Shown one piece after another: positions 52,861 through 56,006 of a stretch of 64,000 nt of DNA. Both the position numbers and the translations under genes were made by a program. The stretch covers positions 210,427 to 274,426 of the forward strand of contig NZ_CAMFLC010000001.1 in NCBI RefSeq assembly GCF_945957465.1. The letters run 5' to 3'. The notes under the pieces are model-generated. The model saw nothing but the letters and a program-made list of their open reading frames with translations, did no database searches and was not told where the DNA came from. Numbering within the stretch: the first letter of the stretch is position 1; the number at the start of each line of letters is the position of its first letter. Source of the DNA: an uncultured Leifsonia sp. (GTDB lineage Bacteria; Actinomycetota; Actinomycetes; Actinomycetales; Microbacteriaceae).

Positions 52861-53421
52861 TCAGCGCCAGCCGTACCGTTCCCGCAGAGCGGCGCGCACG
52901 GTGGCGTACCGGCGCACGTCCAGAGCGGCCCCCTCCCGCCGCATGCCGGTCGTGTGCACACGGAAGACCCGGTCGATCCGGGCGAAGCTCGGGCGGCCCT
53001 GGCCGTCCCACGGGCCCGAGCCGATCGCGACGTACTCCGGCCGCCCCGGGTGCGCCTGGCTGGTCAGGGCCACGGCGATCACGGAGTCTCCCGGCTCCGC
53101 GGCCACCACCAGTACCGGCCGGTCCTTCCCGCGCCCGTCGGCCTCCTCGAACGGGACCCACGTCCAGACGACCTCGCCGGGGTCGGGGTCGCCGTCGATC
53201 CGGGGGCTGTAGGAGGTGCGGAGGCCCGGAAGCCGGCTCGGATCGACCTCGCTCGTGGCGTCGACGCCGGTCCGGCCGGGTTCCGCACCGCTGAAGCCCC
53301 GCACTGCTCCGGACTGCGCCGGTCCCGACCGCGTGGGGGCGGCCGTCAGGCCACGGTGGTCAGCGCTCGTGGACGGCGCCGGGCGGAACAGTCTCGCGAT
53401 CGCGTTCAGCAGTCGGCTCAT
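52861..53421 (-). CDS. Orphan PemK/MazF-like toxin-family protein with N-terminal extension
   Basis: GEVVWTWVPFEEADGRGKDRPVLVVAAEPGDSVIAVALTSQAHPGRPEYVAIGSGPWDGQGRPSFARIDRVFRV is PemK/MazF-like; start MSRLLNA at 53421 (or MLGM at 53430). Confidence 0.7.
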   Translation of the reverse strand: MSRLLNAIARLFRPAPSTSADHRGLTAAPTRSGPAQSGAVRGFSGAEPGRTGVDATSEVDPSRLPGLRTSYSPRIDGDPDPGEVVWTWVPFEEADGRGKDRPVLVVAAEPGDSVIAVALTSQAHPGRPEYVAIGSGPWDGQGRPSFARIDRVFRVHTTGMRREGAALDVRRYATVRAALRERYGWR

Positions 53422-54601
53422 TCCGAGCACGATAGCCGACGCGCGTGAGCCCCATCGTGTACCGGAGCGCGAGCGCGATGCAGAGCGCGATGAGGAACGA
53501 TCCGATCAGCACGGAGAACCCCGCGATGCCCTGGGCGGTGAACAGGTCGAAGTTCCCGCTGTCCACCATCCCGCCGCCGTTGGAGAAGAGTCCGATGTAC
53601 AGCAGGCCCACCATGCTCGCCACGGTGACGATCACGATCAGTGTCATCGAGGCGCCGAACCGGGCCCGTGCGGCGACGTCGACCATGGTCGCGCAGGCGA
53701 GGGCGGCGATGACGCCCAGCAGCAGCGACCAGCCGAGGGTCAGGACGCCCGACGCCGGAGTGATCGCCACGAGCCCGGAGAAGGCGCCGCACAACGCACT
53801 CGTCGTCGTGGGCCGCCTCAGCAGCACGCGGTCGACGACCATCCAGGCGAGGCACCCTCCGGCCGAGGCGAGAAAGGAGTTGACTGCGATGAGCCCCGTG
53901 TACGCGTCGACGGCGCCCTCGGATCCGGTGGTGAGGCCGAGCCAGCCGACCCAGACGAGTGTTCCGCCGATCGCGACGGCACCGAAGCTCCGCTCGCCCG
54001 GCCGGCGGTGCTCGCCGCGACCGCAGGCGAGGATCACCCCGGCTGCCGCGGCTCCGGCCGCGACCCCGATGGGGAGCGCCCCGCCGAAGTCGATGACACC
54101 CATCACGCCGGTCGCCCAGCCGTCGTCGAGTGCGAACACCGCGTACGCGACGGGATAGAGCACCAGCACCGACCAGAGCACGGTGAACACCAGCCACGCG
54201 CGCAGCGTGATCCGGGAGGCGACGGCGACCCCGACGATCGCCACCGACACCGAACAGGCGGCCAGGAGCGCGCCGGCGTGCGCCAGCGCGTAGAGCGAGC
54301 CGCCGCGGCCGCCCGCTGCACCGTGGGCGCCCGTCGCGCCGAAGCCGGTCGCGAGGTCCAGCGATGGCGTCCCCACGATGTGCGCGATCCACGGGGACCC
54401 GGCGAGTATCCCGTAGCCCCCGAGCACCCCGAGCAGGACGGTCGTCGCCGTCCCCGTCAGTGCGAACAGCAGGGCGCGGGAGGCCGCCGATCGCCCGTTC
54501 AGGCCGCCGACGAAGAACGCGAGCCCCGGAGGGATCAGCAGCGTGAGCGCTCCGCAGACGAACAGCAGCAGCGCGTCCACCTGCTCGCTCGTCGCGACCA
54601 T
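53360..54601 (-). CDS. Divergent Amt/ammonium-transporter-family paralogue lacking canonical pore residues
   Basis: MVATSEQVDALLLFVCGALTLLIPPGLAFFVGGLNGRSAASRALLFAL... aligns along its length with the downstream-coordinate AmtB (YPVAYAVFALDDGWATGVMGVIDFGGALPIGVAAGAAAAG; VAITPASGVLTLGWSLLLGVIA). Confidence 0.85.
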   Translation of the reverse strand: MVATSEQVDALLLFVCGALTLLIPPGLAFFVGGLNGRSAASRALLFALTGTATTVLLGVLGGYGILAGSPWIAHIVGTPSLDLATGFGATGAHGAAGGRGGSLYALAHAGALLAACSVSVAIVGVAVASRITLRAWLVFTVLWSVLVLYPVAYAVFALDDGWATGVMGVIDFGGALPIGVAAGAAAAGVILACGRGEHRRPGERSFGAVAIGGTLVWVGWLGLTTGSEGAVDAYTGLIAVNSFLASAGGCLAWMVVDRVLLRRPTTTSALCGAFSGLVAITPASGVLTLGWSLLLGVIAALACATMVDVAARARFGASMTLIVIVTVASMVGLLYIGLFSNGGGMVDSGNFDLFTAQGIAGFSVLIGSFLIALCIALALRYTMGLTRVGYRARNEPTAERDRETVPPGAVHER

Positions 54602-54731
54602 CCCGCTCCTTCGCCAGTCTCGTGCAGGCAATACCCTAGCGGCCCGGCACGAGCACCGATGGTGCCGCGGGCGGATACGGCGGACGGGGTGCCGCCCGAA
54701 GGCGACACCCCGTCGACGTGCTGTTGAGCGG

Positions 54732-56006
54732 TCAGACCGTCTCGAGCGAGTAGCCCTCCTCGCCGTGCACCACGGTGTCGACACCGGCCAGCTCGTCCTC
54801 GTTCTTGATCCGGAAGCCCATGGTCTTCTGGATGACCCAGCCGATGGCGTAGGCCAGGACGAACGAGTAGATCAGGACGCTGAAGGCGCCGAGCGCCTGC
54901 ACCCCGAGCTGCGACCAGCTGCCGCCGTACCAGAGGCTCGAGAACGGCTTGGAGGCGTCGCCGTCCACGTGGGTGAACCCGAAGAAGCCGATCCAGAGCG
55001 TTCCGACGACACCGCCGATGAGGTGGATGCCCACCACGTCCAGCGAGTCGTCGAAGCCGAGCTTGAACTTCAGGTCGATGGCGACGGCGCAGATGGCGCC
55101 GGCGACCAGGCCGAGCAGGATCGCGAAGCCCGGGGTCAGGATGTTACAGGCCGGGGTGATCGCGACCAGACCGGCGACCGCACCGGATGCGGCGCCGATG
55201 GAGGTGGGCTTGCCGTCCTTGATCTTCTCGACGATCAGCCAGCCGATGGTCGCGGCGGCCGGAGCGGCCAGCGTGTTGATCCAGGCGATGGCCGCGACAC
55301 CGTCCACCGCGGCCTCGGAGCCCGCGTTGAAGCCGAACCAGCCGAACCACAGCAGCGCCGCGCCGAGAAGGGTCAGCGGCACGTTGTGCGGCTTGCTCAT
55401 GCCCTTCGAGAAGCCGACGCGCTTGCCGAGCACCAGGGCGAGGGCGAGGCCCGCGGCACCGGCGTTGATGTGCACCGCGGTGCCGCCGGCGAAGTCGTTC
55501 ACGTGCAGGACGGAGGCGATCCAGCCGTCCTGGAGGTTGAACACCCAGTACGCGACCGGGAAGTAGACGACCGTCACCCAGATGCCCGCGAAGACCATCC
55601 ACGCGCCGAACTTCGCCCGGTCGGCGATGGCGCCGGAGATCAGGGCGACGGTGATGATCGCGAAGGTGGCCTGGAAGCCCGCGAACGCGAGGCCGCCGAG
55701 GTCGGGGGTGATCCCGTCCTTGCCCATCAGGCTGGCGAGGAACAGGTCGGGCGTGCCGAGGACGTGCGGGATGAGCGGCTTGCCGAACGACAGGCCGTAA
55801 CCGTAGACGACCCAGAGCACTCCGACGATGGCCATCGCGCCGAAGCTCATCATCATCATGGACACCACGCTCTTGGCGCGGACCATGCCGCCGTAGAAGA
55901 ACGCGACGCCGGGCGTCATCAGAAGAACGAGTGCTGCGGCCACGAGCAGCCACAAGGAGTTGACGGTTCCTGTGGATGCGTAGTCCGCTGCTGTGTGCAA
56001 CACCAT
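54732..56006 (-). CDS. amtB: Ammonium transporter
   Basis: VLLMTPGVAFFYGGMVRAKSVVSMMMMSFGAM...NDFAGGTAVHINAGAAGLALALVLGKR...DDSLDVVGIHLIGGVVGTLWIG; both pore His present. Confidence 0.97.
   Translation of the reverse strand: MVLHTAADYASTGTVNSLWLLVAAALVLLMTPGVAFFYGGMVRAKSVVSMMMMSFGAMAIVGVLWVVYGYGLSFGKPLIPHVLGTPDLFLASLMGKDGITPDLGGLAFAGFQATFAIITVALISGAIADRAKFGAWMVFAGIWVTVVYFPVAYWVFNLQDGWIASVLHVNDFAGGTAVHINAGAAGLALALVLGKRVGFSKGMSKPHNVPLTLLGAALLWFGWFGFNAGSEAAVDGVAAIAWINTLAAPAAATIGWLIVEKIKDGKPTSIGAASGAVAGLVAITPACNILTPGFAILLGLVAGAICAVAIDLKFKLGFDDSLDVVGIHLIGGVVGTLWIGFFGFTHVDGDASKPFSSLWYGGSWSQLGVQALGAFSVLIYSFVLAYAIGWVIQKTMGFRIKNEDELAGVDTVVHGEEGYSLETV

Follow-up and report, generated by a model that had tools for sequence, protein, structure and literature searches.

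Locus organization

Within the window analyzed here, a 64,000-nucleotide stretch of DNA from an uncultured Leifsonia sp., two Amt-family genes lie next to one another on the minus strand, and a genome search identified these two as the only members of the family in the genome. The first is a canonical amtB (54732..56006, read from 56006 to 54732), whose product of 424 aa scores 430 bits against TIGR00836, above the cut-off, and has both the twin-His pair (H179/H328) and the Phe gate (F115/F226). The second, 130 bp downstream on the same strand, encodes a divergent Amt paralogue of 413 aa that has lost its pore residues, which we refer to as PAR (53360..54601, read from the start ATG at 54601 to 53360). 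An earlier note on this DNA had described the open reading frame as adjoining amtB, which is confirmed here, with the strand of both genes now added. A domain search found PF00909 as the sole domain in PAR, at 124 bits against a curated cut-off of 23.2. Against TIGR00836, the NCBIfam ammonium transporter model, PAR reaches 146 bits, under the cut-off of 343.3.

The intergenic region contains a terminator-like hairpin (54683..54714, minus strand; −33.6 kcal/mol, z −5.3), a pattern shared by all Leifsonia loci except those of the two smallest genomes (L052/G402 and L055/G417). It is followed by a −10-like element, TAGGGT (54633..54638, minus strand), 37 bp before the ATG and part of a likely PAR promoter, and by a ribosome-binding site, GAAGGAG (54606..54612, minus strand). 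Most Leifsonia loci have the motif TA[AG][GT]GT in front of PAR, as a rule 35–42 bp before the ATG, and a few are without it. Given a likely promoter of its own behind a terminator hairpin, PAR is probably a separate transcription unit, and co-expression with amtB would not be required. At its other end, PAR overlaps by 62 nt with the start of a PemK/MazF-like gene (52861..53421, minus strand; PF02452), a neighbor that is not known to act with PAR. The same arrangement, with the PemK/MazF-like reading frame opening in the +1 frame within the 3′-terminal part of PAR, is seen in most Leifsonia (positions 52861–53430 here). A further −10-like element, CTATCGT, is located in the conserved VRYRA codons of PAR, and may be the reason why the VRYRA stretch is conserved.

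Loss of pore and gate residues

Residue columns come from two sources: PAR aligned by MAFFT to E. coli AmtB and A. fulgidus Amt-1, and an independent profile–profile alignment. Both methods place G179 of PAR (codon at 54065..54067) at H168 of E. coli AmtB, V325 (53627..53629) at H318, A115 (54257..54259) at the gate residue F107, and L223 (53933..53935) at the gate residue F215, all on the minus strand. In the profile–profile alignment, the corresponding segments of PAR and AmtB are DFGGALPIG and DFAGGTAVH, TLIVIV and DVVGIH, AGALLAAC and AGFQATFA, and GWLGLTTGS and GWFGFNAGS. The reading by eye in the earlier note, with the first twin-His replaced by Gly, the second by Val, both gate Phe lost and the Asp preceding the first His retained, is therefore upheld at every position. 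That Asp is D171 (54089..54091, minus strand), equivalent to D160; W212 (W220), T273 (T281) and S219 (S227; 53921..53923, minus strand), which belongs to the periplasmic S1 ammonium site, are conserved as well. PAR also lacks Q104, N216, D310 and D313 of AmtB, of which D310 and D313 are on the cytoplasmic side. The earlier note had named an alignment that restores the pore histidines as grounds for abandoning its reading, and comparisons at the sequence, profile and fold level restore none.

To place these substitutions in the wider clade, residues were counted in 29 intact PAR orthologues and compared with the 29 neighboring AmtB proteins. Position 168 is Gly in 12 orthologues, deleted in 11, Ser in six and His in none (n = 29), and position 215 is Leu in 29/29. 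Position 107 is more variable (Val 13, Ala 8, Leu 6, Thr 2; n = 29), as is position 318 (Val 10, Thr 7, His 6, Ala 4, Met 2; n = 29). The claim that both pore histidines are gone thus holds for the PAR of the window and for most of the clade, but not for the 6/29 orthologues that keep H318. By comparison, F107, D160, H168, F215 and H318 are all kept in 29/29 neighboring AmtB proteins. Because the loss of H168 and F215 is common to 29 orthologues and all four pore and gate residues are kept in the 29 neighboring AmtB proteins, the residue loss goes far beyond chance. Other positions of PAR have been held or changed just as consistently: D160 is Asp in 28/29, W212, S219 and T273 are invariant, and A162 is replaced by Gly in 29/29. 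Bulkier residues are found in the pore, with I266 changed to Phe in 18/29 and C262 to Leu or Phe.

In the early-branching PAR proteins (g29, L009, L050, L053 and L054), H168 is lost and H318 kept, and the orthologues with H318 retained, which carry Ser at position 168, form early branches in the tree. From this tree, we infer that H168 and the gate were lost first, and H318 later. PAR itself is on a long branch for which long-branch attraction is likely, and the root of the PAR clade was not used. A one-residue deletion at position 168 is present in two separate branches, its exact placement being dependent on the alignment.

Predicted fold

The AlphaFold2 model of PAR, built with 19 orthologues, has 11 membrane helices (pLDDT 75.5, pTM 0.79), and Foldseek matches it to Amt-1 and AmtB structures (2b2f, 2npk) with TM scores of about 0.8–0.87. 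By homology and fold, PAR is a member of the Amt/Mep/Rh superfamily. Within this fold, however, the share of charged, Asn, Gln and His residues falls from AmtB to PAR in TM5 (13.0% to 4.4%), TM6 (4.5% to 0.3%) and TM10 (16.7% to 1.0%). The C-terminal tail motif of AmtB is absent from PAR, whose tails vary, are short and run into the start of the next gene, and an invariant SGNFD motif has been gained in the TM10–TM11 loop. TM7 and TM9 of PAR have 26% and 39% identity with the AmtB consensus; in modeled Rh heterotrimers, TM7 and TM9 are at the subunit interface (PMC3832391).

Distribution and selection

The PAR gene was found in 28/28 Leifsonia genomes and is intact in 27/28, and the named relatives are all Leifsonia. 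One sister genus also has it, in 2/2 genomes and at ~50% identity. In 30/30 Leifsonia and sister-genus loci from whole genomes, PAR is directly behind amtB on the same strand, with a gap of 91–224 bp. A further PAR-like protein was found in none of the genomes searched more widely (400 from the family, 347 from the order, 397 from the phylum), though low-scoring divergent Amts could escape such detection; the next matches below PAR were ordinary AmtB. In addition, a literature search found no publication on a Leifsonia Amt paralogue. The one defective Leifsonia copy (G416; L060/L098) is missing its usual ATG and is frameshifted near residue 325, likely a recent loss, or else an assembly error.

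Could PAR simply be a redundant, functionless duplicate in slow decay? Its protein sequence evolves several times faster than that of AmtB, the G416 copy is broken, and the pair from the two 2.6–2.7 Mb genomes (L052 and L055; G402 and G417) has a dN/dS of 0.66, which looks relaxed, with D160N in one of the two. Elsewhere, however, close PAR pairs have a dN/dS of about 0.08–0.2 (Nei–Gojobori), with AmtB at roughly 0.01–0.16 by the same method, and the reading frame is intact in all Leifsonia but one. The promoter-like element and the ribosome-binding site are conserved as well. Of the near-invariant PAR positions, 76 agree with AmtB and another 61 hold a fixed residue unlike that of AmtB, as expected of a change in function and not of decay. 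PAR is not a pseudogene, and slow decay, already disfavored by the selection data, is very unlikely as an account of the clade. Decaying relatives, which would have counted against the idea of an intact, non-canonical Amt put forward earlier, were not found apart from the broken G416 copy and the relaxed pair, and the idea itself is strengthened by genus-wide presence, purifying selection and the 61 PAR-specific fixed sites. The PAR branch has probably been kept for a job other than ammonium transport.

Possible functions of PAR

Published mutants of E. coli AmtB provide a guide to what the lost residues do. The H168A/H318A double mutant retains an interaction with NH4+ near S1 but no transport, and its residual current needs S219 (PMC7447429). 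Single twin-His alanine mutants conduct K+ and rescue K+-limited yeast, and single-His mutants still sustain growth on ammonium (PMC7447429). At the gate, replacement of F215 by Ala, His, Glu, Ser or Trp abolishes AmtB transport, and F107A leaves AmtB unaffected (PMC10433425). Both histidines and F215 are lost in PAR while S219, D160 and W212 are retained, and we therefore infer that the AmtB mechanism of ammonium transport does not operate in it. This loss of transport is not certain, as no description of F215L, the change seen in PAR, was found in the AmtB mutant studies consulted. An altered route for ammonium or ammonia might be imagined, given that F107A is harmless, that single-His mutants permit growth on ammonium, and that W212, S219, D160 and T273 are all in place. 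Against it, both histidines and F215 are missing together, the AmtB double-His mutant is without transport, and PAR scores 146 bits where the NCBIfam ammonium-transporter model asks for 343; we consider such a route quite improbable.

A second reading is that PAR makes homotrimers that conduct another substrate, either as a channel for K+ or hydrated NH4+, or by passing a neutral small molecule through its apolar pore. The K+ conduction of single twin-His mutants is relevant here, as the early-branching PAR proteins resemble that state, and the 61 PAR-specific fixed sites, including the invariant SGNFD motif, would suit a new function. On the other hand, helices TM5, TM6 and TM10 have been stripped of polar residues and the pore has gained bulkier ones, which speaks for a dry pore and against a hydrated ion channel, and an open K+ leak would burden the cell. 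The new-substrate role suggested in the earlier note is thus weakened as far as ions are concerned, and overall we regard another substrate as possible but rather doubtful.

The same note had also raised a sensor, and the retention of D160, W212 and S219 in a protein whose transport residues are gone is what would be expected if PAR bound NH4+ at the outer site and signaled without transport, as a transceptor. Sensor Amts with impaired transport do exist, for example KsAmt5 (PMC10433425), and 8qj3 and 6eu6, both of this kind, were among the Foldseek matches. The gene context, however, is unsupportive of this role: PF00909 is unaccompanied by any fused signaling domain, no kinase or cyclase is adjacent, and the genome has no GlnK/PII. 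Moreover, KsAmt5 itself retains the twin-His pair, and the C-terminal tail of PAR varies, is short and shares its coding DNA with the start of the following gene. A sensor therefore seems unlikely to us, more so than a channel for another substrate.

The reading that we favor over another substrate, a sensor, residual ammonium conduction and decay is that PAR is a modulator of AmtB, that is, a transport-incompetent Amt retained by selection. We put this forward tentatively, as a proposal that comes close to an even chance without reaching it. PAR is a tandem-duplicate Amt protein in which the overall fold of AmtB is predicted to persist and the outer vestibule still has its floor (D160, W212, S219). 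What it has lost are the parts that move ammonium, namely the two gate Phe, the first His always and the second mostly, together with the polar side chains that line the pore helices and the cytoplasmic mouth, and it would be retained as a non-conducting Amt subunit. Such a subunit could modulate the adjacent AmtB by entering mixed trimers with fewer active pores, much as RhCE and RhD associate with RhAG. Alternatively, separate PAR trimers could bind ammonium without passing it. The residue losses, their conservation, the purifying selection, the linkage and the predicted fold are shown, but any action of PAR on AmtB is conjecture. The specific version in which pore-dead PAR joins AmtB in mixed trimers and sets AmtB activity in bacteria that lack GlnK, as a bacterial counterpart of RhCE/RhD with RhAG, appears to us distinctly less probable than modulation in general. 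A mixed-trimer role, also raised in the earlier note, is compatible with the unbroken linkage to amtB, which tandem duplication alone could also explain. Weighing against modulation are the likely promoter that PAR has to itself behind the hairpin, the 26% and 39% identity of its TM7 and TM9 to the AmtB consensus, and the missing AmtB tail.

No PII/GlnK was identified in the source genome, where AmtB works without this usual regulator, and PII was absent from 179/200 sampled family genomes. We also considered PAR as a general replacement for GlnK and rejected it, as those 179/200 family genomes lack PII and PAR is confined to two genera.

If PAR does modulate AmtB, it would represent a route of regulation independent of GlnK. 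Whatever its role, the PAR clade amounts to a natural experiment on twin-His function: the first His has given way to Gly, Ser or a deletion, the second went later, and the orthologues that kept H318 and those that lost it provide ready intermediates for studying selectivity and gating. It also shows that the Amt scaffold can be maintained by selection without its transport chemistry.

Comparison with known Amt and Rh proteins

Compared with prokaryotic AmtB and Amt-1 (PF00909, TIGR00836), PAR is alike in full-length homology, in its 11 helices and in D160, W212, S219 and T273, and is found beside a canonical amtB. It differs in the absence of the twin-His pair, the Phe gate, Q104, N216, D310/D313 and the C-terminal tail, and in a TIGR00836 score below the cut-off. 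Annotation of PAR as a functional ammonium transporter is inappropriate, because the curated score, the twin-His pair and the Phe gate all fail to support it. The sensor Amts KsAmt5 and Sd-Amt1 share the Amt fold with PAR and have impaired or no transport. Both carry fused signaling domains, and KsAmt5 keeps the twin-His pair; PAR has neither of these features.

RhCE and RhD are like PAR in being divergent paralogues that stand beside a transporting homologue, in their case RhAG. They too are not known to carry the twin-His pair. However, they belong to the animal Rh branch and have a proven complex with RhAG (PDB 7uzq), whereas PAR is not known to form one.

In the fungal Mep1-type H168E Amts, the first pore His is also naturally changed; these proteins have Glu and still transport ammonium, whereas in PAR that position is Gly, Ser or deleted, and the Phe gate is absent as well. 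A 2020 eLife study described the twin-His pair as essential to the point that His→Glu in fungi is its sole natural variation (PMC7447429). Tandem amt pairs in which the second copy is H168E were seen in two other Micrococcales lineages (L029/L097 in G226 and L079/L096 in G651; DFAGGTVIEINSG and DFAGGTVVEVNAG), and with these two bacterial His→Glu copies, the restriction of His→Glu to fungi is not upheld either. The PAR clade is an exception to the wider rule, in that its first pore His has been replaced by Gly or Ser, or deleted, in bacteria.
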